Origin: a virus
Strand: one strand, 5' to 3'
DNA length: 41,581 bases
IMG/VR virus record: IMGVR_UViG_3300031987_000002
Span: 1-41,581 of that record
Both the position numbers and the translations under genes were made by a program. The notes beneath the pieces were generated by a model. That model had not been told where the DNA came from, made no database searches, and saw only the letters and a program-made list of their open reading frames with translations. This document shows, in pieces, positions 126-13,736 of the stretch. Within the stretch, counting starts at the first letter, position 1; each line of letters starts with the position of its first letter.

Positions 126-647
126 TCAAGGTGGCACCCTCCTGAGCGTCAGCAGATATGCCCGGCAGGAATTGTAAGCCGCGCTCAACGTCTCTATCTC
201 TGTCAGGGCTTCTCTAAGGCGTCGAGAATTTTCTTCTGGTAGTACCCCGCTGGCCTGGCCGGCGTCTTCTTCACCAGATCCGGTACCGGCGGCGGCGTCA
301 CCTTCGGCGCTTCCACCACATGCCCGGGGCTCGGTGACAACGCGCACCCGTACAGGGCGCTGCTCAAGGCGAGCGGCAAGGCGGCTAATTTCAGATTTGG
401 CTTGCTCATCCAGTTTCTCCCGTTCTTCTGCCAGGCGGTGCAACTCCGCTTCCTTTCGGTCGCGGTCGGCTTTCAGCTTGACCAGCCGCTGCTCGGCCAG
501 TCGGTTGGTCATTTCTACTTGAGCGGCCAGTTTCGCCCACTTCTCAAGTACGGATTCCCGGCCGTTGGCAAACCCATAGAAGAAAATGCCCACGGCCACC
601 AGAACCACCACGGCTGCACCCAGCAACTTGGTACGGACATTAGTCAC
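126..647 (-). CDS. Rz: Rz-like inner-membrane spanin (i-spanin)
   Basis: This is the inner-membrane subunit of the spanin complex, which fuses inner and outer membranes in the last step of lysis. The 173-residue product has one N-terminal membrane segment (about residues 6-25, TKLLGAAVVVLVAVGIFF region) followed by a long charged coiled coil, as expected for Rz. I chose GTG at 647: it follows GGGAGG by 5 nt and overlaps the endolysin stop by 8 nt (GTGACTAA). The upstream in-frame ATG at 680 has no ribosome-binding site. Residues after about 105 become rich in G, A, S, E and D exactly where Rz1 is encoded in the +1 frame, a mark of overprinting. The last gene of the lysis cassette, it ends tail-to-tail with the integrase fragment. 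Confidence 0.85.
   Translation of the reverse strand: MTNVRTKLLGAAVVVLVAVGIFFYGFANGRESVLEKWAKLAAQVEMTNRLAEQRLVKLKADRDRKEAELHRLAEEREKLDEQAKSEISRLAARLEQRPVRVRVVTEPRACGGSAEGDAAAGTGSGEEDAGQASGVLPEENSRRLREALTEIETLSAAYNSCRAYLLTLRRVPP
203..409 (-). CDS. Rz1: Rz1-like outer-membrane spanin lipoprotein, embedded in Rz
   Basis: This 68-residue prolipoprotein lies wholly inside Rz in the +1 frame. It has a basic start (MSKPNLK), a hydrophobic stretch and a lipobox ending LYGC (Cys22), so the mature lipoprotein is about 47 residues. The mature part is proline-rich (VTPPPVPDLVKKTPARP), typical of o-spanins that reach across the periplasm to bind Rz. A GGGAG ribosome-binding site lies 7 nt before the ATG. 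Tyrosine at the -2 position of the lipobox is uncommon but tolerated. The nested arrangement matches that of lambda and many proteobacterial phages, so the call is firm although the protein is short. Confidence 0.85.
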   Translation of the reverse strand: MSKPNLKLAALPLALSSALYGCALSPSPGHVVEAPKVTPPPVPDLVKKTPARPAGYYQKKILDALEKP

Positions 648-1185
648 CTTTGCCTCCCTGAACAGAAATACACTTTTCATGCCGGTCTATTTGGCGCTTC
701 CAGACACCCCAACACCGCTGGTTTGGCTCCCCATTAACGCGGGTTGAACAGTCGTACCCGCCTGCGTATCTCCACATCAGCAGAGCATCACACGCTTTGG
801 CATGATTGCCGGCAAGCAGGTGGCGGCGCATGGATGAGCGCTTCCAGTTGCCAATGCCGTACTGCCCCACAAAATCCAGATACAGGTCATACTCGGTCTG
901 GTGGAGCTTCACGCCCGGAATTGAGGCCTTGAACTTCTGTTCATCGGCTTTGAACAGATTGCGGGCCAATTCCTCGGCCCGCTTCGGAGTGATGGCGGGA
1001 TCATCCAGATTCACCCGGGTACCGTCCTCATACCGCGTACTGCCGTACCCGATAGTGGGCACATCGCCTTCCACCGGGATCACGGGCTTTTCGGTGTAGC
1101 CTTCATAGGCCGCCCAGGACGAGAAGCCGCCCGCACTGAGCGTGAGGGCTCCAACCGCAATTCGTTTACGAAGGGCAGGAATCAT
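640..1185 (-). CDS. SAR-type endolysin, GH24 lysozyme family
   Basis: Muramidase that cuts peptidoglycan at lysis. The 181-residue product starts with a weakly hydrophobic Gly/Ala/Ser-rich segment (residues 9-27) after KRIA, the hallmark of a signal-arrest-release domain that holds the enzyme inactive in the membrane until the holin depolarises it. The glycosidase motif begins at E28 (AAYEGY), with D41 and T44 in GDVPTIGYGST. The Asp lies 13 residues after the Glu rather than the T4-lysozyme spacing of 9, as in a variant set of phage endolysins with an IPVxGD loop. C-terminal parts (GNWKRSSMRRHLLAG, CWGVWKRQ) fit the family. It overlaps the holin 3' end by 20 nt and is preceded by GGAGGGTGGAAG. 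Its stop overlaps the Rz start. Confidence 0.85.
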   Translation of the reverse strand: MIPALRKRIAVGALTLSAGGFSSWAAYEGYTEKPVIPVEGDVPTIGYGSTRYEDGTRVNLDDPAITPKRAEELARNLFKADEQKFKASIPGVKLHQTEYDLYLDFVGQYGIGNWKRSSMRRHLLAGNHAKACDALLMWRYAGGYDCSTRVNGEPNQRCWGVWKRQIDRHEKCISVQGGKGD

Positions 1186-1523: not shown

Positions 1524-4500
1524 TCAGTTTCCAGGCAGCTCGTTACGCAGGTAGTTCAGCTTCTTGTCGATCAGAACACCCTCACGCGCTTTGCCCCGGT
1601 TCTCGGCCCGGCGCATCATCGAGCTTTGGATGGTGTCGAACGTGATAGCCACCCTCGGGTTACGGCGGTTGAATTCGCGGATCTTCTGCCGCAGGCGGTC
1701 CCGCATTTCCGTATCACCGGTGCGAGTCGCCACTGCAAAGCGGTTCAGCAGGTTGCGGCGCTCTCCGATAATCCGCTGCTCGGCATTCTTCAGGGCTGAG
1801 TTCCGGTCGTACTTCTCGGCAATGCTGGCCGGCATGAAGCCCATAGACTGCGCTATCACTTCCCAGGCGCTGGCCTTGTCCACCATGGAGTAGCCGTTCA
1901 GAGACTGGACGCCCTCGTTGGAGTACCGCACACCGCGCAGCAGGTCTTTGCCCGCTTTTGGCAGCATGGTCTCAATGCCGCGCGCGATGTGGCCTTCGCC
2001 CATGATGCTGAGACCGGAGAAAACGTTAGCGATAACTGCCGGCGCCGCGCCCAGGGCTTGCTCCATCCAGTAGTAATAAGCATCGCGGCCTTCCAGCTCC
2101 CTATAGGGGGAGAAGAACCACAGGTGCCCCATACCAATCCGCTCGGTAAGACTCAGGTTGGCCAATTCACCCGGCACCCCACGGAAGAAAATGCCGGCGG
2201 CATCTTCACCCAGGGCTTCAGTCACGTACCGCTTGATTTTGTCCTCGGCCGTCCAAGGGTCGTCGTCATCATCCATGAAGTTCAAGACCGTCAGCAGGGC
2301 CTGAGCCCCAGGCACACCCATCATGCCAGCCATCAGGGCAAACATGCCGTAGATGCCGGCAAGGCGGCGCATGGCCTCACGGCGAACTTCCTTGCTTTCA
2401 CCCTTCAATGCCTGACGCATATCAATCGCCAGCCGGGACAGCATGTTGATACTGTGCTGACGGAACACCAGCAGGATCTTGGCGGTATCGCCTTGCATGT
2501 ATCGGGCTCGGTTGCCGCTGGAATAGTCGAAGTGCACCGTCCAGGTCAGCTCGGCGGCCTCCTTGATTGCCTGCTTGTGGTTCAGGCCGGCGTTCCGGCC
2601 CATCCGGTAGGCGGCCAGTGAGGTCACTTCCCGGTTGTACCGCTCGGCATGGTGGAACATGAAACTGATTGCCCCCATAACCTTGTGACGCACCGCGCTG
2701 TATTCCACGCCAGTTTCACCCACACCGGCCAGGTCGTGCGCCTGAGTCTTGTCGATCAGGCCCAGGCGCATGAACTCGTCAAACGCGGCCTTCTCGTCGC
2801 CGGTCAAGTTCTTCTCAACGTGGCCCCGGCCCTTCACGAACTCACCGGATGCTTTCAGCAGTTCAGCCGTGGCCTTGCGCTCACTCTTGAACCGGGTGCC
2901 AAGCACGGGAACGCCCATCATAAAGGTCTGAGTGGTGTTCACGAACGCGGCCGCCGGCGTGATACCCAGCTGGTACGCAAACGCGAATGAGGTAATGTGC
3001 TGAGCCAACTTCCCGCCCTTGGGGTTCATCACCCACTCATGGCGCCGGCGCAGCTCGTTGGCCACGGTCATGGCATCGGCTGAGTCTTCGGCGTCGCTGG
3101 CCTGTTCTTCCACCTGCTCAACCAGCTCGTCCATTTCCAGGTTGTGCTTGAGCCGCGCAATCTGGTGGGATGAGTGGAACATGGTGCTGGCGAACACTCG
3201 CATGGCGTCCTGGTCATACCCCGGAACCTTCTTCCGGTGGATGAAGCTTTTTCGCATGGAGAAATCCGGCAGCGTTTCGAGATACATCTGGTAAATCGCA
3301 TCATTGAGCGATTCATCGTCCACGTTCTCCGACACCAACTCCTGAATGTCGGCCACGAAACCCGGGTCAATGGCTCCCTGGATGTCCTCTTTGTTGGACT
3401 GCCGGCCGGTGGTGACCTCAAGATCCGGGTAATCCTTACCCAGCTGTTCGGCGGCTTCTTCCATATCCGCAGCCTTCTCAAACATGCTGAACGAGCGCAG
3501 GGTACCGTCCTTCTCGCGCAAGGCCACAAAGTAATCACCGAACCGCTTGAGCGGGAAATAGGGCTCATCCACCCGCATCTGCTCAAACTTCTGGCGAAGG
3601 AGCATGGTGCGAGAGGTGCGGCCGTGATCCGCTGACGCTACCCGCTTCTTGTATTTTTCCTCGGCTTCCTCGATGGCCTGGTCCTGCTCAGGGCCGGTCA
3701 ACTCGTCCTTGGCCTTCCGGATCTCCAACTGCAGATCCCGGGCAGCTCGGCGCTTGGCAAATTCGGCGCTCTTGCGGATGTTCTCGGCAATGGCGTCCTC
3801 CATCGCTTTCACTTGATCGCCGTAGGCATCCCGAACGTCCTTGAACAGCTGTTGCTGGGTGGCCGGCAACTTCTCGTACCGCGCCCGCAGGATCTGGTAC
3901 AGCGCCTTGTCAGCGTTCTTCTTTCGGGGCTTGGACGGGTCAATGCCGGCAATGGTGGCATCGTGCATTAGCTTATCCAGGGGCGCTGCATTCTTGTCAC
4001 GCAGGCCAAGCACGGTTTTCACCTTGTCCTTCACAACGCCCTCGCTCATGCGCTCTTTGAGCCAGCGCTGTGCCAACTGGTCGTAGCGGGTGTGCATCTC
4101 GTTCCGGTCGGCGTCCATGGCCCGCTTCTCGTCCAGATAGCGGTCCAGGGCGGTCATGCCCTTGGGCGCGAAGTCGCGCAGGTACATCAGCGGAAGGGCG
4201 CCCAACCCGGCCGGTTTCAGGTCGGCCAGCTTGCCCTTGATTCGGCGGGTCATTTTCTTGCCGAAGGCGGCGGACGCCTGGCCACGCGGGATGGATGATG
4301 GATTGGCCGTGGTCCGGCTGAACGCTGGGATGTCAGCGCCCTTGCCCTGGATGTCGGCGGAAAAATCTCGACGGGGAGCCTCGCGGCCGCGCTCAAATGC
4401 TCGAGCAATCAGATCAATCCGGCTGCGCAGCTCGTTGACGCCAATGCTGTCATTGATCCAGCCAGCTTTCACCAGAAGGCGCTTGACCGCACGGAAGATG

Positions 4501-7500
4501 GTACGCCAGCCCCGTTGCAGCCAGTTAATACGGGTCTGAGCAAGTGAGCCAAGCAATTCCTCGGCGTACAGCCGGTTCGCCTGCTCCTTGTTCAACTTGG
4601 CGGATTTTGCCACGGGTTCATAGTCAGAGACGACCTGATCCCAGAGGGCTTTTACTTCCCGGCTTTCTTGCGTCGCTTGCTGAACATCGCGGTAAAGCTG
4701 GTTGCGGTCTTCAACCTTAAAGAATCCCAGGCCCTTGTGAACCAAGATTTCTTCCTGCAACGCCTCATTGACCGAACGCCGGCTATCAAAAGCTGTTCGG
4801 ACGAGGTGAAGGGTGTCTTCCGTGCTGACGTACTGCCCTGAGATTGCGGCCGCACTGTCTCGGGCCTGGTCGAAGCCGGGAAGGGTTCTGGCTGTATCGT
4901 GAATTTGGACTCGGACATTGGCGGCTCCCGGGTAGCGCTCAAAGAACCGATCCACTGTAGCCTGCACGGCATCCCGTGACAATCCACGGGACACGGCGCC
5001 AGACTGGCGCATGAACGCTGGCGTTTCTTGTTCGCCATCGCCCTCGCCGGATTTCTCGACCACGCCAGGGGCCTCAAACTCACGTTCCTGATAGAGCGTG
5101 AAGCCCTGGCCGTCTTTCACCTCCATGTAGGGGATGGCTACGGTGCCGTTCTTGTCCTCGGCTAGAACATACCAGCCCTGGTCGTTCCAGCGGTGACCGG
5201 TCACGGTGAAAGGCTCGCCGTTCCACAACACTTCGGTCTCCACCGGGGCGCCGGTGCGCAGCCATGCCGGCGGGGCTACCGGGTTGTCCTGCAGGTCTTG
5301 CTCCAAGTCGGCCAGCTGCTTTTCCAGCCGCTTCAACTCGTCGGCCTGCTGGAAGGGCTCTTTGGATACCTTCTCGGCCCGGTCCCGGGAATCCCGGTTT
5401 TCCTGGATCTTGCGGCGCAGGTTTTCCAGACGGTCACCGAAGCCGCGCAAGGTCGCCTCAAAGCTGGCAATGGTCGGCTTGTTGGAAAGAACCTCTACCC
5501 CGTTGCCGTAGTCCGCGTAAAGCTGGGGCTCGGCCGCATTCTCGGCCATGCCGATGGCAAGTTTCAGGTCGCCGTAGGTGCCCACCTCCCGAACCGGGGA
5601 GCCCATACGGATGTTCTTGCTGACATACTGCCCAAGGGCTTCTTGAGCTTTGCCGCGCTCGGTATAGGCCTTCCCGTCAATGGTGGCGGTGAAGTCGTTG
5701 CCAGCATTGGCCTTGAGGGAGCTGGTGGTACGCTGCTCAGCGTTGACTGACTCGTAGCGGTCCACTCGCTCTTGGTCTGAGTTGATGGAGGATGTCAGGT
5801 TGCGGACCTGACGCTTGGCATTGGCGATACCCTGGCTGTGCAACCGCTCCCGCTGCATGACCATGTTGATTTTCTTCTCAATCTTGGCCCGCTGCAAAAC
5901 CCGCGCATCACCAGCCGCTTCCGCGAAGGACTCCAACATATCGTTGTCTTCGTCGGTGGCGCCATCCGCGTCGATAATACGAACGCTGTCATCGGCTTTC
6001 AGGAACTTCTCGATGAATTGCTGCTTCTTCACCAACAGCTGCCAGCGCCGGCCGTCAATGCGGTCGGTCAGGTAGCGATACTCCCGAACCGTGTTCCACT
6101 GGTTGCCCTGGCGCTGGCCGCGCCCATTGCGTTGTTCCAGGTCGCCAGGCATCCAGGGGGCGTCCATGTGGTGCATGGCCCGCAAGTTCTTCTGCATGTT
6201 CACACCCACACCCAGGGACTGAGTGGAGCCGATCACCACGCGAATCTCGGAGCGGTTCATGGCGTCCGCAATCGCGGCCCGCTTATCCTTGCTGGTGGCG
6301 CCGGTCACCAAGGCGATTTGGTGCCGTGGGATGCCCTGCTGAACCATCCGCTCCACCATATCGTGAGCGGTGGAGAAAACCTTTTTGGTCCGCTTTCGCT
6401 TGTTGCCGTTCTCGTCAGTGATTGATTCGGTCGCGCTCTTGCTCAGGCCCAGCTGGGTAAAAATCACCTGAGTAGCACGCTCATCGGAGTTGTAGACCTC
6501 CATCACGTTCTTGATAACGCGGGACGGCTTGCTGTTGGGGTCGTCGGGTACCTTGCCTTCTTCGCCTGCCAATTCCTCGGCATACATGAGACGGGCGTCA
6601 AAGCTGACCTTCGCGGCCAGACCTTCGTAAACAATCGGGGATTGCGGGTCACCACGGCGCATGGCCTTCACCCGCTCTTTCCCGCTCATGGCCCGGAACT
6701 GCTTGGCGTACTCCTGGATCTTTGCGAAATGCGCCCGCTGATCGTCGGTCAGGTCCGCCGTTTCGTTCAGAACCTGCTTGTACGGCCGGTCCTTCGCGCC
6801 TTCGGTACGGCCGTTGAGCAATTCAGCCCGTTCCAGCTCGGTCAGGCTCGGGTCGCTCAGGGTCTTGCCAGACTTGGTTTTCCGGGGCTGCATTTCCGGC
6901 ATATCCTCGGAAAACACAACGTCCATGTACTGGCCAACCATCCGGCGCAATTCCGGCGTGTTCACGAACTTGGACAGGCGGGTGACCGACTCGTATTCAC
7001 CAGCGGCGGTCAGCTCGATGTCCATTTCTTCCTGAGCGAAGGAACCGAACCAGCCGTCCCACTGATCCAGCCCGGCCTCCTGCATCTCTTCCTCCATGAT
7101 GTAGCGCATCTGGTGGAAGGCTTCGGTCATGGAGTTGGTCAGCGGAGTGCCAGAGAAGGTGTGCACGTTGCCGCCACTGTTCATTCCGCGCACGTACTTG
7201 AGCATAAAGCGCAGAGCAATCGACTTGGCGTTCGACTGCGTGTTCATGCCCTTGATACGCATCTTGGTGGCCAGGGGCGGCTTCTTGAACTCGTGCACCT
7301 CATCGACCAGAACCATATCAATGCCCAGGTCTTCAAAGGGAATGGCGCCCTCTTTGCTGGACCGTATGGCCTGCTTCTTGATGCTGGCGATGATGTTGTT
7401 CCGGGCTTTCACCAGCTCCTTGGCGGTCGGTGAACGCAACTTGGCCAGCTCGTCCTTCACTTCCTCGGGATCGCCCAGCATATCCTTGGTGATTTCAACG

Positions 7501-10500
7501 CCATCATCCTTGGCCGCTTCTTCGGCCTCGGCCATCAGCTCGTCAATGTCCTGCTGAGCCATCTGCATCAGCGTTTCTTCTTTGAAGCCGATGTTATTGA
7601 TGAGCGAGTGAGGCAGAACAATGGTGTCCCAATCGTCGTTGGCAATCTGGCGCATTCGGGTCGCAATCTGCTTCTTGTCCAGATTGTCGATGTAGAGGAT
7701 TTTGGCCGCCGGGTACATCTGCTGGATTTCGTTGGCCACGCTCTTGCTGTTGGCGTTATGGGCCAGGAGTAGCGGCTTCTTGGCAATCCCGTAGCGTCGG
7801 GACTCTACCGCGATACCGCCCATGGTGAAGGTCTTGCCGGTACCAACTTCGTGGGCATTGATGGACTTCCGGGTAACCAGCGCCCGCCAGATTGCGTTTT
7901 GCTGGTGTTCCCGAAGGTCGAACGGACCATTGCCCAGGGAGAGCGCCATGCCCTCCATGGCCATGAACGAGCCGTCATAGGTCGGAATGGCGTAGCTGTT
8001 GCGGGTCTCGTTGTATTCGCGCTCAAGGTCTTCTCGGCGCTCGGGGTCGCTCCATACCCATTCCCCGAACTTCATCCGCATTTCAGCAACTTTGCCGTTC
8101 ACCTCGGTGGTGGCGGCGGTATTCACATATTCCTTGCCGTCCGTGTCCTTGCTCTTGATGGTCACGGGGCGGTTGCTGATAGCGGCATTGACCAGCTTGC
8201 TGAACGGGTACTTTTCGGTACCGTAACCGCTGCTGGCTTCCGGCCGGCGGTTAAGGTCGCTGTCCATGCGGATCTTCCACTGGCCAGCCCGGTAGGTCAC
8301 TTCAATGCCGCTGGTGCTACTCAGGCCAAGCATTTCGGCCACAAACTGAGCGTAATACTCCTTCGGTACCCAGGTGGCACCCATCTGGGTTTCGATGTTG
8401 AAGTACGGGATGTCCTTCGGCTTCACCCGCTCCAACGCTTCCACGTTCCGCTTCATGCGGGTGTCGCCGGATTCTAGCGCCGCCTTGGCCTGGCGCAGCT
8501 TCTGGCGCACGTTTCCGGACAGGTAAATGTCAGCGGATTCGATGTCGCCGTTGGGCAGGTCGAAAATCGCGCCCTTCTCGATCAGCTCCTTACGAACCGA
8601 CTGCTCGGATTTCTTGGCAATCCTGGCTATCTCACCCAGGGTCGGGTTTACATACTGGTTCCGGGCAACCACATAGGCCTCGGAAACCGAAGGATTCTTG
8701 ATCTTCTTCGGCTCCCGAATGGTGCTTTTAGTGAGGATGTCTGACGGCTCGTACCCCTCGCCCGCTTTTCGCTCAAGGGCCGCCAGGGCCGGGTAGAACG
8801 GATCTTGAATGCGCTGCAGGTACTTCAGGCCAAAACTGCCGTTCAGCTGGCCATGCTCGTCCACAAACGAATCGTACTGACGCTTCAGCTCCTTTCGCTT
8901 CGCGGTGGCGCTTTCGTCAACATCGCGTTCGGCGTCAATCAGTTCGCCGTAGGCCTTCCGGAGCCCGATCAGGCGGTCAAGCTGATCCTCTCGCGCCTTG
9001 GTGGTCGCCTCGGATTTAACTGCGTACTTGACGACATCCGAAGCGTTGGCAATGTATTCGCCGCGAACCACGCCCAGGGCGCCGTCCTTGTCCCGGACCA
9101 ACGAACCCTCGCGGTCGTCCAGGTGATTCGCCACGTAGCTGATTTGCTTGCTGCCAGAATCCTCTAGGTAGGCGCCGTCTGGCACCTTGGCGGCAATTTC
9201 TTTCAGGCGGTCAGCCACATTATCCGGGCGGTGCACGATCAAGCCGGGGCGGCCGCTGGTGGTGCCGTGGCCAAAGTCTACGGTACCAATCACGTTGTCC
9301 GGGTTGTTGGCGAAATACTCATTAATGAATACTTCCTCACCGCTCGGGGTCTTCACTGGCACAGAATCCAGCCAGCCTGCATCCGTGGGAACCATGCCCA
9401 GCCTTTCCGGACGCTTGCGCAGGATGATGATGTCGGTCACCACTTTGGTACCGGCGTACTCCTGAAATGCTCCGGTCGGGAGACGATACGCGGCCACCAG
9501 CTCACCCTTGCGGGCCAGCTCGTTGCGGATCACCTTGTTCTTTTTGTCCATGCTGCCATGCGTGGTAATGCCCACCACAAGGCCGCCGGGGCGAGTCTGA
9601 TCAAGCCCCTTGAGGAAAAAGTAGTCGTGCAGATTGGGGTTTAACTTCTGGTACCGGCGGTCGGGCACCTCGATATTGGCGAACGGCCAGTTACCAATCA
9701 CCACATCGTAGAAGTTATCTGGGGTCTTCGATTCCTCGTACCCCATGACGTTGATGTTGGCGTCCGGGTACAGCATTTGAGCCATGCCCCCGGTTACCGG
9801 GTCCAGCTCGATACCAGCCAGGTTGCTGCGGGTCTTCAATTCCTCCGGCATCATGCCGAAGAAGTTACCGATACCCATGGATGGCTCAAGAACGCGGCCG
9901 CCCCTGAATCCCATCTTCTTGACCATATCCCACATGGCCATGACGGTGGGTGGATCGGTGTAGTGGGCATTGATGATGGAGCGCTGCATCCCCTCCCATT
10001 CAGACTGCCCCAGCTGGTCACGTAGCCAGGCATCGCGTTCCTCCCAGCCTTTCTTGGGCTTGGGGTTCTTCCAGGTGCCCTGGAAAAGCTCTTGGCCAAA
10101 CGAGCCCCAGCCGGTATAGGCGGCGATTACGCGCTGGTCGTCTTCGGTAATTGAGCGTCCGGTATCGCGGATGTCATTGAATCGCTCAATGGCTGCCTGG
10201 TTCTTCTTGAAGCGCTGAACCTGGCCACCACCAACGATCTCGAGGGGGTTGTCATAATGGAAGTTGCCGGGGCCGGGGGCGGCCTCACTGCGGGGCTCAG
10301 GCGTTACGCCTGTACTGCTTCGTCCTCTTGACTGTTCTCCGGCTCCATCATCAGGTGCATTCTCTCGGCCTGCTCCCGCGCGTCCGTCACCGGGTACCCC
10401 TGATCCATCAGGCTGTCCATTTCCTGCCACATCCGTTCCTGCAGAACGGTCGCCAGCTTGTTTGTCAGCCCGGCCGCCATCAGCCGCTGCCACATCTTCG

Positions 10501-13500
10501 GGCTGTCCTGCTTCCACGCGGCCAGAATCCGCTTGTGCAGATCCTGGTTGTGCAGGAAGTTCTCCTCGTCCGCTGTCAGCTTCCGATACTCCTTCAGTAT
10601 CTGAGCCTTCCAGTTCGGGTCGATTTTGTTGCTGTCCATCACGCGCCTCTGTTTCGGGCTGATTGTCACTGTCTACTTTAGCATCAGTAGCCGTGGTTTT
10701 CTGGTCGATTTCAGGCTCGGCGGCATTAGATTTTTCGGCAATACCATCGCCATAGCCAGCAAGCCAGGCATCGGAAAGCTCATCGTTCATCCAGTCAGGT
10801 GGAGTGCGCTCGTCACCATCGGCGGCGGCCTGCTTTCCGGTATCTCTGGCCTGCTGCAGTTTCTCGGCGCGGCGGGCATCCTCGACTGGCACTGTGTCCG
10901 ACTTCTCCCGCGACTCCGCTGGGGCCTTTTCCTCGGCCTTTTTCTTCTGGGCCTGCTCAATACCCTCTTTGACGCTGGACGGCTTATCGGCGGCATCCTG
11001 ACCGCTTTCAGCGTTCGCCTTCTGGCGTTTGGCCTGCTCTCGTTTGAGCTTCTTGGTTCGCTTATGACCGGCACCGTAATGCTCGATGGCAGCGTCAAGC
11101 TCAGCATCAGACATATCCGGGATCTGCTTGCGAGTAACAGCCGCGATGTCGATTTCGTCCGGTGCACTGTCTGCCTCCTGCTCTACTGCCGGTTCCTCGG
11201 TAACTGGCTGGGCCTCCGGGGCCGGGTCGGCGGGCTCGGTATCACCCTGCTGGGCCGGGTTCTGCTTGTTGTCGATTACTGCATAATGCGTTCCCCAGCC
11301 ATCCTGCCGGGGCTCAACACGGTAGCTTTCCCCTGGATTCTCGCGGGTCAGGCGTTCGGCAATACCCTGAGCCTGTCGCTCAGAACCTGAGCGCTCCACA
11401 ATGCCAGGCTCGGGCGGATTCTCGATGTCCCGCTTACGCTGGTCGGCAGCCCGCTTAACTCGGTCGTAGCCTTCAAGGTGGCCATCCGGATCTTCGCCAT
11501 GCTCGGTCATGATCTGGTCAACGGCTTCCGGAGAGTCGGCCTGCTCAATCTGCCCCAATCGCTGTTCGCTGCGCTGCTGGTAACCCTCGGCACCGGCAAC
11601 GGCCGAGTCGGCGGTAACCTGATCCTGCTCTTGAGCGAGAGCCTCCGAAGCCGGCTTGCTGGTGTCGCCTTCTTTCAGCCAGCCCTTGAACTCGTCAACG
11701 CTCATGGGGCGCACGGGGCCAACCTGCCAATCAGGATCGAAGTTTGACTTGTAGGCCACCACGGCCGCCTGCTGGCTGGGATAGCCCATCATCACCTTAT
11801 GCTCATCAAAGCCGCCGGTTTCCTGGTCCAGCTGATCAATCACGAACACTTGGGAGGCGTCTGACTGAGGGCCAACGTATACGTCCACCTGCTCGGAGTC
11901 GGCCCCCTTGGTGCGCTTGATGTATCCGTAGTGGTCGCTCATTTCATGCTGCCACTCGGTACCGTCAGGGCGTTTACCCTTGCGAACGGAGCCCCGTGGG
12001 TTCTCCACGGCGACATCCATGCCCTGCACGCGAACATGGCCCTTTTTGTAGTTGCCAGCCTCAATCTGAGCCTCGGTCGGCTCAGGCAAGTCATTGGTGG
12101 GGCTGGTTGCCGCCTCACTAGCGGCCTCATCGACGGCCTTGCGCTCAGCGAATCCGGCCAGCTCTTTCAGGGTCCGGTCACGCTCGCCAATCAACCGCTC
12201 ATCCCATCCGGACGCACGGGCCTGTCCGGACAAGGTTTTCAACTTCTCCTGCAGCTGGGCAATCCGAGTGTCGTCGTCCATTTCCTCGGCGGTATCAACG
12301 GCCGCGTCCATGGCGTTTTGTTCGGCAAATGGCTGTGGCTGCGCATCAATCACTTCGCCGGTCTCCCGGTCGATGCTTTCACCTGCAAGGAACGACGCAT
12401 CCCCGGCCTCGGCTGCCTCTTGCTGGGCCTGCTGAGCCATTTGATCGGAAACGCCAGAGTCCACCGCCATCACGGCGGCCTCACTGATCGGCCCCTCGTT
12501 AGGGTCAAGGCCTAACTGCTCGGACGGCAATGTGCGCTCACTCAGCCGTTCAGTGGCGTATTGCGGCGGAACCTGGCCAGGGGATGTCCACTGCTGGCTA
12601 TCTTCGGCGGCCGGCTCCTTCTGTTCGGCGCCCTGAATAGGGGCCTGGGCCCCCATTGGGGTCATTTCCGGAGCGGCGTCAGTCTGCGCTTGTTCTTCCA
12701 GCTGACGCTCTTGCTCCTGTTGGCGCAAGGCCTCCTGCTCAGCCTCAAAACGCTGGCGCTGTCGCTTGCTGGCAAAACCTTCTGCCGCCCCGGTACCGCC
12801 GCCGGCAACACCACCGGCCAGGCCTTCCAGGGTGGCCGAACCAGCCACGCCCTCCCACGTTGGGCGGTCAAAACCTTCATTCTGAACTGCGGTGTTGGAG
12901 GCAAGCTGTTCATGGCCACCCTGCACCGCCTCAAGCGGCGCTTCTTTGGCAAAACCTTTGGCGGTCTCCTTGAGGACGCCAGGCTTTCCGCCGGTACCCG
13001 GGATGCGGCGCCCCATGCGGTTCACTGCCCGCTCTACGCCGGTGGTGCTGGCAACGGTTCCAAGCCCGGCGCCAATGCCAATCTGCCCAAGGTTTTCTCC
13101 GGAGTAGGCTTGCGCCTCCTGGGCGCGGGCCTCGGCTTCTTCCTCGGTCGCGCCGTTGGCCAGGTGTTCGGCCTTCACATCCTCGTAAATGCTGCTCTTG
13201 GTGAAACCGGCGCCCTGAGCCCCGCCCATGGCGCCAGACACCACCTGCCCACCCCGGCCTTTGGTCAGGGCCTGGACCGCAATCTGCGGCGCTGCGGTTC
13301 CGAGTGATTCAATGGTGGTATCAATAGGAGCGTCCGCGAAAGCCTCGCCGTAGGCCTTCATTTCTTCCCATGTGCTGCCGGACTCACGGGCGCGGCGCAT
13401 ATTCGCGGCATTGGCGTCCTGTTCGGCCCGGCGGCCGCCGGACTTCATGCTGTCTAGGTTTTCGTCAATTTCCCGAAGGCTCTTGGCGGTGTCGCTGCCG

Positions 13501-13736
13501 GCATTCACCGCACTGACGAACCCCTCCGCGCCACGGACAAAGCCCTGACCAACGGAAACGGCGGTATCTTTCAGCTCGTCGCCAATGCCGCGCTCTGCCC
13601 CATACTCCGGATCTTCGTATGGATTGCTTGGCTTCTTCGTCGCCGGCCTGGTCTTGGCCTGAGACTGACCGCCATAACCCTCCGGTTTCCGTTCCTCGGC
13701 ACCAAAGTTCGGATCATCGTAAGGATTGCTGGACAT
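1524..13736 (-). CDS. Giant polyvalent (DarB-like) protein: InPase-like, N6-adenine methyltransferase, SNF2 helicase, metallopeptidase-like, PLxRFG domains
   Basis: 4070 residues. Residues 3-14 and 37-48 are near-identical SNPYDDPNFGAE/SNPYEDPEYGAE motifs. A Gly/Ala-rich, possibly membrane-active stretch follows (about 140-320). Residues 553-690 resemble the inorganic-pyrophosphatase-like domain of polyvalent proteins (ENPRGSVRKG, HYGYIKRTKGAD, VDVYVGP, DEHKVMMGYPS). About 960-1000 is weakly RMF-like. 1026-1145 is a low-complexity linker overprinted by another frame. A class-N12-like N6-adenine methyltransferase spans about 1190-1450 (VLEPSMGIGNFFG; motif IV GNWPFA). An SNF2-type helicase spans about 1940-2560 (EVGTGKT about 1965; DEVHEF about 2147; QRNGRGQRQG about 2538). 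EEILVHKGL (about 2996) looks like a degenerate metallopeptidase site. YFPLKRFGDYFV (about 3393) is the PLxRFG motif, followed by amphipathic helices. By family it is probably packaged, injected and anti-restriction. Start: GGAGG and a TGATG overlap with the upstream gene. Confidence 0.88.
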   Translation of the reverse strand: MSSNPYDDPNFGAEERKPEGYGGQSQAKTRPATKKPSNPYEDPEYGAERGIGDELKDTAVSVGQGFVRGAEGFVSAVNAGSDTAKSLREIDENLDSMKSGGRRAEQDANAANMRRARESGSTWEEMKAYGEAFADAPIDTTIESLGTAAPQIAVQALTKGRGGQVVSGAMGGAQGAGFTKSSIYEDVKAEHLANGATEEEAEARAQEAQAYSGENLGQIGIGAGLGTVASTTGVERAVNRMGRRIPGTGGKPGVLKETAKGFAKEAPLEAVQGGHEQLASNTAVQNEGFDRPTWEGVAGSATLEGLAGGVAGGGTGAAEGFASKRQRQRFEAEQEALRQQEQERQLEEQAQTDAAPEMTPMGAQAPIQGAEQKEPAAEDSQQWTSPGQVPPQYATERLSERTLPSEQLGLDPNEGPISEAAVMAVDSGVSDQMAQQAQQEAAEAGDASFLAGESIDRETGEVIDAQPQPFAEQNAMDAAVDTAEEMDDDTRIAQLQEKLKTLSGQARASGWDERLIGERDRTLKELAGFAERKAVDEAASEAATSPTNDLPEPTEAQIEAGNYKKGHVRVQGMDVAVENPRGSVRKGKRPDGTEWQHEMSDHYGYIKRTKGADSEQVDVYVGPQSDASQVFVIDQLDQETGGFDEHKVMMGYPSQQAAVVAYKSNFDPDWQVGPVRPMSVDEFKGWLKEGDTSKPASEALAQEQDQVTADSAVAGAEGYQQRSEQRLGQIEQADSPEAVDQIMTEHGEDPDGHLEGYDRVKRAADQRKRDIENPPEPGIVERSGSERQAQGIAERLTRENPGESYRVEPRQDGWGTHYAVIDNKQNPAQQGDTEPADPAPEAQPVTEEPAVEQEADSAPDEIDIAAVTRKQIPDMSDAELDAAIEHYGAGHKRTKKLKREQAKRQKANAESGQDAADKPSSVKEGIEQAQKKKAEEKAPAESREKSDTVPVEDARRAEKLQQARDTGKQAAADGDERTPPDWMNDELSDAWLAGYGDGIAEKSNAAEPEIDQKTTATDAKVDSDNQPETEARDGQQQNRPELEGSDTEGVSEADSGRGELPAQPGSAQADSGRVEAGQPEDVAAADGGRADKQAGDRSAGTDVAGNGQPDGSGVPGDGRAGAGRENAPDDGAGEQSRGRSSTGVTPEPRSEAAPGPGNFHYDNPLEIVGGGQVQRFKKNQAAIERFNDIRDTGRSITEDDQRVIAAYTGWGSFGQELFQGTWKNPKPKKGWEERDAWLRDQLGQSEWEGMQRSIINAHYTDPPTVMAMWDMVKKMGFRGGRVLEPSMGIGNFFGMMPEELKTRSNLAGIELDPVTGGMAQMLYPDANINVMGYEESKTPDNFYDVVIGNWPFANIEVPDRRYQKLNPNLHDYFFLKGLDQTRPGGLVVGITTHGSMDKKNKVIRNELARKGELVAAYRLPTGAFQEYAGTKVVTDIIILRKRPERLGMVPTDAGWLDSVPVKTPSGEEVFINEYFANNPDNVIGTVDFGHGTTSGRPGLIVHRPDNVADRLKEIAAKVPDGAYLEDSGSKQISYVANHLDDREGSLVRDKDGALGVVRGEYIANASDVVKYAVKSEATTKAREDQLDRLIGLRKAYGELIDAERDVDESATAKRKELKRQYDSFVDEHGQLNGSFGLKYLQRIQDPFYPALAALERKAGEGYEPSDILTKSTIREPKKIKNPSVSEAYVVARNQYVNPTLGEIARIAKKSEQSVRKELIEKGAIFDLPNGDIESADIYLSGNVRQKLRQAKAALESGDTRMKRNVEALERVKPKDIPYFNIETQMGATWVPKEYYAQFVAEMLGLSSTSGIEVTYRAGQWKIRMDSDLNRRPEASSGYGTEKYPFSKLVNAAISNRPVTIKSKDTDGKEYVNTAATTEVNGKVAEMRMKFGEWVWSDPERREDLEREYNETRNSYAIPTYDGSFMAMEGMALSLGNGPFDLREHQQNAIWRALVTRKSINAHEVGTGKTFTMGGIAVESRRYGIAKKPLLLAHNANSKSVANEIQQMYPAAKILYIDNLDKKQIATRMRQIANDDWDTIVLPHSLINNIGFKEETLMQMAQQDIDELMAEAEEAAKDDGVEITKDMLGDPEEVKDELAKLRSPTAKELVKARNNIIASIKKQAIRSSKEGAIPFEDLGIDMVLVDEVHEFKKPPLATKMRIKGMNTQSNAKSIALRFMLKYVRGMNSGGNVHTFSGTPLTNSMTEAFHQMRYIMEEEMQEAGLDQWDGWFGSFAQEEMDIELTAAGEYESVTRLSKFVNTPELRRMVGQYMDVVFSEDMPEMQPRKTKSGKTLSDPSLTELERAELLNGRTEGAKDRPYKQVLNETADLTDDQRAHFAKIQEYAKQFRAMSGKERVKAMRRGDPQSPIVYEGLAAKVSFDARLMYAEELAGEEGKVPDDPNSKPSRVIKNVMEVYNSDERATQVIFTQLGLSKSATESITDENGNKRKRTKKVFSTAHDMVERMVQQGIPRHQIALVTGATSKDKRAAIADAMNRSEIRVVIGSTQSLGVGVNMQKNLRAMHHMDAPWMPGDLEQRNGRGQRQGNQWNTVREYRYLTDRIDGRRWQLLVKKQQFIEKFLKADDSVRIIDADGATDEDNDMLESFAEAAGDARVLQRAKIEKKINMVMQRERLHSQGIANAKRQVRNLTSSINSDQERVDRYESVNAEQRTTSSLKANAGNDFTATIDGKAYTERGKAQEALGQYVSKNIRMGSPVREVGTYGDLKLAIGMAENAAEPQLYADYGNGVEVLSNKPTIASFEATLRGFGDRLENLRRKIQENRDSRDRAEKVSKEPFQQADELKRLEKQLADLEQDLQDNPVAPPAWLRTGAPVETEVLWNGEPFTVTGHRWNDQGWYVLAEDKNGTVAIPYMEVKDGQGFTLYQEREFEAPGVVEKSGEGDGEQETPAFMRQSGAVSRGLSRDAVQATVDRFFERYPGAANVRVQIHDTARTLPGFDQARDSAAAISGQYVSTEDTLHLVRTAFDSRRSVNEALQEEILVHKGLGFFKVEDRNQLYRDVQQATQESREVKALWDQVVSDYEPVAKSAKLNKEQANRLYAEELLGSLAQTRINWLQRGWRTIFRAVKRLLVKAGWINDSIGVNELRSRIDLIARAFERGREAPRRDFSADIQGKGADIPAFSRTTANPSSIPRGQASAAFGKKMTRRIKGKLADLKPAGLGALPLMYLRDFAPKGMTALDRYLDEKRAMDADRNEMHTRYDQLAQRWLKERMSEGVVKDKVKTVLGLRDKNAAPLDKLMHDATIAGIDPSKPRKKNADKALYQILRARYEKLPATQQQLFKDVRDAYGDQVKAMEDAIAENIRKSAEFAKRRAARDLQLEIRKAKDELTGPEQDQAIEEAEEKYKKRVASADHGRTSRTMLLRQKFEQMRVDEPYFPLKRFGDYFVALREKDGTLRSFSMFEKAADMEEAAEQLGKDYPDLEVTTGRQSNKEDIQGAIDPGFVADIQELVSENVDDESLNDAIYQMYLETLPDFSMRKSFIHRKKVPGYDQDAMRVFASTMFHSSHQIARLKHNLEMDELVEQVEEQASDAEDSADAMTVANELRRRHEWVMNPKGGKLAQHITSFAFAYQLGITPAAAFVNTTQTFMMGVPVLGTRFKSERKATAELLKASGEFVKGRGHVEKNLTGDEKAAFDEFMRLGLIDKTQAHDLAGVGETGVEYSAVRHKVMGAISFMFHHAERYNREVTSLAAYRMGRNAGLNHKQAIKEAAELTWTVHFDYSSGNRARYMQGDTAKILLVFRQHSINMLSRLAIDMRQALKGESKEVRREAMRRLAGIYGMFALMAGMMGVPGAQALLTVLNFMDDDDDPWTAEDKIKRYVTEALGEDAAGIFFRGVPGELANLSLTERIGMGHLWFFSPYRELEGRDAYYYWMEQALGAAPAVIANVFSGLSIMGEGHIARGIETMLPKAGKDLLRGVRYSNEGVQSLNGYSMVDKASAWEVIAQSMGFMPASIAEKYDRNSALKNAEQRIIGERRNLLNRFAVATRTGDTEMRDRLRQKIREFNRRNPRVAITFDTIQSSMMRRAENRGKAREGVLIDKKLNYLRNELPGN
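10304..10639 (-). CDS. Candidate overlapping gene nested in the polyvalent gene (+1 frame), helical protein of unknown function
   Basis: A 111-residue frame lies wholly inside codons 1033-1145 of the giant gene. The ATG at 10639 is preceded by AGAGG with a 6-nt spacer, and the frame ends with TAA at 10304. The product looks like a normal soluble helical protein (NWKAQILKEYRKLTADEENF, RILAAWKQDSPKMWQRLMAA). Its codons are the G/C-ending ones favoured in this genome (CTG, AAG, GAC, CAG, GCG). The giant-gene frame over the same bases is low-complexity (Gly, Asp, Ala, Ser, Gln) with many A/T-ending codons such as GGA, CGA, GCA and CCA. The frame offset equals that of Rz1 in Rz. I do not recognise the family. 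Helical segments of this kind occur in other mobile-element polyvalent proteins, so it may be a former domain shifted in frame. An in-frame GTG at 10669 is a less likely start. Confidence 0.6.
   Translation of the reverse strand: MDSNKIDPNWKAQILKEYRKLTADEENFLHNQDLHKRILAAWKQDSPKMWQRLMAAGLTNKLATVLQERMWQEMDSLMDQGYPVTDAREQAERMHLMMEPENSQEDEAVQA

Follow-up and report, generated by a model that had tools for sequence, protein, structure and literature searches.

Overlapping genes are a known kind of genetic arrangement, and phage spanin loci provide a long-recognised case in Rz1, a lipoprotein of known role encoded by a small +1 gene that lies inside Rz and has its own start. Few phage proteins match the polyvalent proteins in size, and these are believed to pass into the host cell along with the DNA. 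They have been described as early-phase conflict proteins, and the DarB-like proteins are counted among them (PMC5512222). As regards overlaps that link protein modules, the spacer of the hepadnavirus polymerase has been proposed to have arisen over gene S, thereby linking two modules (PMC8227390). Another relevant system is TnpV (PF14198), a small protein of Tn4451 and of Firmicutes elements, for which a function in excision was postulated in Tn4451 on the basis of its similarity to lambda Xis (PMC3158075).

Here, we analysed a 41,581-nucleotide stretch of viral DNA (IMG/VR record IMGVR_UViG_3300031987_000002, hereafter the window), which contains the following features:

1524..13736, minus strand: host gene, encoding a 4,070-aa polyvalent (DarB-like) protein with InPase, methylase, SNF2-type helicase and LPD39 domains
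10290..10710, minus strand: low-complexity host-frame linker over the nested gene, the only place where the host coding signal is lost
10304..10639, minus strand: overlapping gene of 111 aa and a stop codon, nested within the giant gene in its +1 frame
10646..10650, minus strand: Shine-Dalgarno motif AGAGG, 6 nt 5' of the nested ATG
10673..10675, minus strand: TAG closing the nested frame upstream of the ATG
9711..10280, minus strand: start of the conserved methylase-helicase module (APGPGNFHYDNPLEIVGGGQVQRF...), which comes after the nested gene in almost every relative
126-680, minus strand: Rz-like spanin (Rz by PHROG) with an Rz1-type +1 frame

The host gene belongs among the DarB-like polyvalent genes, since its product is very large and combines InPase, methylase, helicase and LPD domains. 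Pfam searches supported InPase (1.2e-53), LPD39 (1.6e-42) and Helicase_C (5.3e-10), with only a weak match of the Eco57I model to the methylase domain (0.0066), and many of the records matched by the host protein in tblastn were annotated as DNA methylase or DarB-like. Its neighbours are endolysin and spanin genes after it, and head-closure and other late-region proteins before it. An earlier note, made from the sequence of the window alone, had compared the nested frame with an Rz1 frame lying inside Rz at the same +1 offset, and this spanin pair was indeed found; its Rz1-type frame is an 89-residue stop-to-stop stretch with a lipobox-like segment (...LPLALSSALYGCALSPSP). Both cases consist of a small +1 gene with its own start inside another gene of the same window, although Rz1 is a lipoprotein and unrelated to the nested product.

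The nested ORF runs from 10639 down to 10304 (ATG...TAA), and its product begins with MDSNKIDPNWKAQILKEYRKL and ends with EPENSQEDEAVQA. The earlier note's description of a 111-codon frame in the +1 register, preceded at 6 nt by AGAGG (10650-10646), proved accurate, as did its account of a Gly/Asp/Ala/Gln-rich, low-complexity host frame over the same bases; the antisense frame, said to be rich in His/Val/Leu/Gln, was likewise seen to be Leu/Val/His/Gln-rich. The product is acidic (net charge -6) and predicted to be all-alpha, with helices at residues 8-23, 32-45, 47-55, 59-79 and 84-96 and a disordered acidic tail, so that structure prediction points to a roughly four-helix protein.

The length of the ORF was rejected as evidence, because the giant gene holds longer +1 stop-to-stop stretches that arise by chance (189 and 154 aa). 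Codon statistics were more informative. When the 17 main genes of the window were scanned in 60-codon windows, a non-annotated frame outscored the annotated one only at 10706 to 10227, where the +1 frame reached up to 0.58 and the host frame scored between -0.23 and -0.02. Over the whole ORF, the score was 0.51 for the nested frame and -0.20 for the host frame, ordinary host stretches lying mostly at 0.35-0.6. The synonymous-codon index over the overlap was 0.755 in the nested frame versus 0.380 in the host frame, which bears out the previous claim that genome-typical codons are used in the former and poorly used ones in the latter.

Homologues were found by tblastn in Pseudomonas phages USP_18 and USP_25 (51% identity), and in USP_25 a 14.7-kb CDS contains the relative, again nested in the +1 register. 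USP_25 and the loci retrieved in two IMG/VR scans were grouped as branch A (19 loci on 18 distinct contigs). All 19 loci carry an ORF in the +1 register of a host frame that is open for more than 1,500 codons, immediately before the methylase-helicase module as in the window, with identities to the window protein of about 26-72%, 26% being the lowest over the alignment. None of the deposited public records inspected contained a CDS for the nested gene, the feature reported under the nested matches being the host gene or, in phage PBC5, orf33. The search of the product against databases that the earlier note had proposed thus returned homologues, yet no PHROG, NCBIfam or PDB family fits it: searches of Pfam, PHROGs and NCBIfam, for which the window protein and 18 relatives served as queries, yielded no consistent match in branch A, and Foldseek comparison of models of both branches (branch B is described below) with the PDB gave no match at E<=0.001.

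In order to compare substitutions in both frames, as had also been proposed, it has to be considered that host position 1 corresponds to nested position 3 in this register. Within the branch A overlap, substitutions were concentrated at host position 1; between the window and locus L009, 41, 20 and 17 substitutions were counted at host positions 1, 2 and 3, whereas the downstream host codons displayed the usual position-3 excess (19, 13 and 82, respectively). The comparison therefore revealed constraint on the nested frame, with changes accumulating at its third position. Nested identity exceeded host identity in all 190 branch A pairs and in all 364 branch B pairs. When the host proteins were held and codons were randomised, the observed nested identity was far above expectation (median z 6.9), whereas with the nested proteins held host identity was near expectation (median z 2.0), which indicates that the host linker is largely a shadow of the nested gene. 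Nevertheless, all observed sequences keep the host frame open, which happened in only 0-40% of the trials with randomised nested codons. Sequence pairs are related and not independent, and these z values are descriptive only.

Start signals were conserved as well. The nested starts are conserved as ATG or GTG, and AGGA, GGAG or GAGG precedes 51 of 56 of them, compared with 9% of the other ATGs in the same loci; at nine loci, an in-frame nested stop lies 0-2 codons before the start. A nested frame broken in relatives while the linker stays open would have refuted the earlier proposal, and no such case occurred among the 56 alignable members. The ORF hence has what is expected of a functional overlapping gene, that is, purifying selection across divergent relatives and start signals of its own. 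Of the two alternatives raised initially, the first, an independently translated product, is supported by the conserved frame, start and Shine-Dalgarno motif and by selection on the nested frame. We conclude that 10639..10304 on the minus strand is almost certainly a real, conserved and translated overlapping gene, its translation being inferred without transcript, ribosome-profiling or mass-spectrometry evidence.

The family extends beyond branch A. A set of 22 loci was chosen by the methylase domain alone, without reference to the nested ORF, and these phages gave weak profile matches to the nested family at the same place. A scan with an alignment of these relatives yielded 55 viral loci, referred to as branch B, which include phages of Klebsiella, Erwinia, Vibrio, Pseudomonas and Agrobacterium but are not all independent genomes, as some contigs are IMG/VR copies of deposited phages. 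The ORF is nested in the +1 register in 52 of the 55; the remainder are L083, likewise nested but incomplete at the end of its contig, L059, a truncated copy, and L073, which is PBC5. Both branches are alike in predicted helices and were joined by profile comparison (hhalign, 96% probability, E 2e-9). When the combined profile was compared with all six frames of the methylase-selected loci, the next best matches were precisely the +1 ORFs of loci that had diverged further, L048, L007, L006 and L041, and that of L050 also matched, below threshold.

With regard to the methylase-selected set itself, a +1 ORF was present at the site in 19 of 22 loci, 17 of which displayed the flip in coding signal (the exceptions being L007 and L048). 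Two of the 22, Streptococcus phage L039 and faecal contig L042, have methylase loci without a nested gene, and consequently the methylase-helicase module can exist alone; the third locus lacking the +1 ORF (L044) is again PBC5. Adjacency is not strict either, since in Agrobacterium phage Atu_ph08 the nested gene lies 605 nt upstream of the methylase. In phages 8P (L038, 2654-2923) and Y7 (L040, 2642-2932), +1 ORFs with coding signal occupy the same place without detectable sequence similarity to the nested family; these may be fast-diverged relatives or independent overprints, and they were counted as candidates only.

In the single genome of Sinorhizobium phage PBC5 (L044/L073), the giant gene is split: orf33, the upstream half, extends without a change of frame into the small protein, and an ORF of its own encodes the methylase half. 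The PBC5-type small-protein tail is also carried by PHROG_938 (profile positions 2084-2185). The split may be genuine, or it may reflect an indel error in old sequencing. This arrangement bears on the second alternative of the earlier note, a former domain shifted out of frame, which is not supported: no intact giant carries the small protein as an in-frame domain, the lone in-frame case has a split giant gene, and the opposite course is suggested by codon usage and by the phylogenetic distribution. Codons in the nested frame resemble those of the genome, its phylogenetic spread is wide and its remote relatives occur as separate genes (TnpV), whereas none of this applies to the host linker. 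Judged by the criteria of codon usage and distribution that PMC8227390 reviews, it is a supported inference that the small gene is the older one and that the host linker is an overprinted newcomer.

Moreover, host sequence upstream of the overlap was homologous in only 57 of 171 branch A pairs, in contrast to the downstream module (171 of 171), which makes the nested gene the left boundary of a cassette to which shuffled upstream domains have been joined. On this basis, the host-frame linker would have arisen by out-of-frame overprinting of the small gene, and this overprinting would have fused variable upstream modules to the methylase-helicase module. The hepadnavirus polymerase spacer over the surface gene is similar in that a spacer frame over a small gene links two modules of a multidomain protein, although the virus and the proteins are unrelated and the window comes from a tailed dsDNA phage. 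As for expression, we infer that ribosomes would start within the giant mRNA, at the nested Shine-Dalgarno motif, and would produce the small helical protein alongside the giant one. Taken as a whole, this explanation of the locus, in which a linker was overprinted on an older gene that is read from an internal start, is considered very probable, the proposed partnership with the module being much less secure. A broader formulation, in which an ancient and widespread small-protein family has stayed unannotated because of the overlap, giants were built by overprinting and the small protein is an obligate partner of the methylase-helicase module, is put forward only tentatively.

The function of the small protein is the least secure part of this explanation. 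It could be a partner of the methylase-helicase module, either as an assembly or packaging chaperone or as a modulator that would regulate what the module does until the next cell is entered. This role is inferred from linkage only, namely from the fact that the nested gene is inherited together with the methylase-helicase module rather than with the shuffled domains upstream, and we regard it as the likeliest of the roles considered, though as possible rather than probable. The same linkage weighs against an effector that acts on its own, such as an anti-restriction protein or another protein directed at the host, and that merely has its location and its transcript in common with the giant gene. 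Such an effector would suit a product that is small, acidic and endowed with its own start signals, encoded within a gene for an early-phase conflict protein (PMC5512222). Nevertheless, no copies outside polyvalent genes were found in the phages or plasmids searched (the plasmid searches for the family were empty), and about 1,150 proteobacterial genomes returned only the seed genome and one marginal match (E 6.5e-4), although this sample was thin and part of it lacked a positive control. We consider an effector rather unlikely, without dismissing it.

Less still speaks for a TnpV-type accessory factor for recombination or excision (Xis-like), retained from a transposon ancestor, a reading that we judge improbable. 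It draws on the distant similarity to Pfam TnpV of 30 of 39 branch B members at E<=0.1 (best 3.6e-5), on a gut-contig nested ORF above the cut-off and on the excision role postulated for Tn4451 TnpV (PMC3158075). By sequence profiles, the nested family thus appears remotely linked to TnpV via branch B, to which branch A is joined by the hhalign match, and the TnpV core motif Trp/Leu-x4-Pro-x5-Leu-x3-Gly-x-Leu ... ARE can be aligned to the nested family by eye. However, the window protein has no TnpV match, the branch B scores shown (20.9, 18 and 20.7 bits) do not meet the curated cut-off of 27 bits, which among the scores shown only gut contigs L007/L008 pass, and even for TnpV the role is no more than postulated. 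The window gene is also not transposon-borne beside a recombinase but lies inside a late-region phage gene next to lysis genes, unlike the TnpV of a Streptococcus element, a separate gene adjoining serine recombinases without polyvalent overlap.

The contigs L007/L008 hold, at 4648-4920, a +1 nested ORF (TnpV, 4.7e-8) that represents a direct TnpV-type member inside a polyvalent gene. The Streptococcus element (L106, phage phi-SgaBSJ31_rum) is an integrated element within the phage, whose TnpV gene is full-length and separate and is flanked on one side by serine-recombinase-like ORFs and on the other by a translation-factor-like ORF that resembles tetracycline ribosomal-protection proteins. 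TnpV relatives in viral contigs comprised near-identical copies only.

A programmed +1 frameshift out of the host frame, by which the N-terminal half would acquire a different C-terminus, would accommodate PBC5, where the small protein is in frame with the upstream part of the giant and the methylase half stands apart in its own ORF. PBC5 is one genome, though, and may hold a sequencing or real indel, and the conserved ATG/GTG and Shine-Dalgarno signals, together with the nine loci with in-frame stops 0-2 codons before the nested start, render this reading very improbable. In the window, the TAG at 10673..10675 means that a fused product could come only from a frameshift within the few codons between this TAG and the ATG. 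Translation was not observed, but given the 51 of 56 Shine-Dalgarno motifs and these nine loci, internal initiation is far likelier than frameshifting. Finally, a chance open frame or compositional shadow of the biased linker is refuted by the substitution pattern and retains a negligible likelihood, for even though long +1 stop-free stretches do arise by chance in this GC-rich gene, selection, common Shine-Dalgarno motifs, a register kept over dozens of genomes and homologous divergent copies are not explained by it.

The founding paper on polyvalent proteins contains neither 'overlapping' nor 'TnpV' in its text (PMC5512222), and full-text literature searches, restricted to open-licence papers, revealed no description of an overlap in polyvalent genes. 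What is new here is a deeply conserved overlap inside polyvalent genes, apparently at a seam of the giant protein. A conserved second product of a polyvalent gene has accordingly been missed in every annotated record inspected, and this product offers a direct handle on the assembly or control of giant polyvalent proteins. The locus also provides a tailed-phage example of a multidomain giant apparently joined by a linker overprinted on an older gene, and it warns that conserved nested genes in long ORFs are hidden by standard gene callers. In the Pseudomonas phage Itty13 (L033, MW460249.1), hypothetical genes have been deposited on the strand opposite to the giant gene at this place, which is probably a misannotation.
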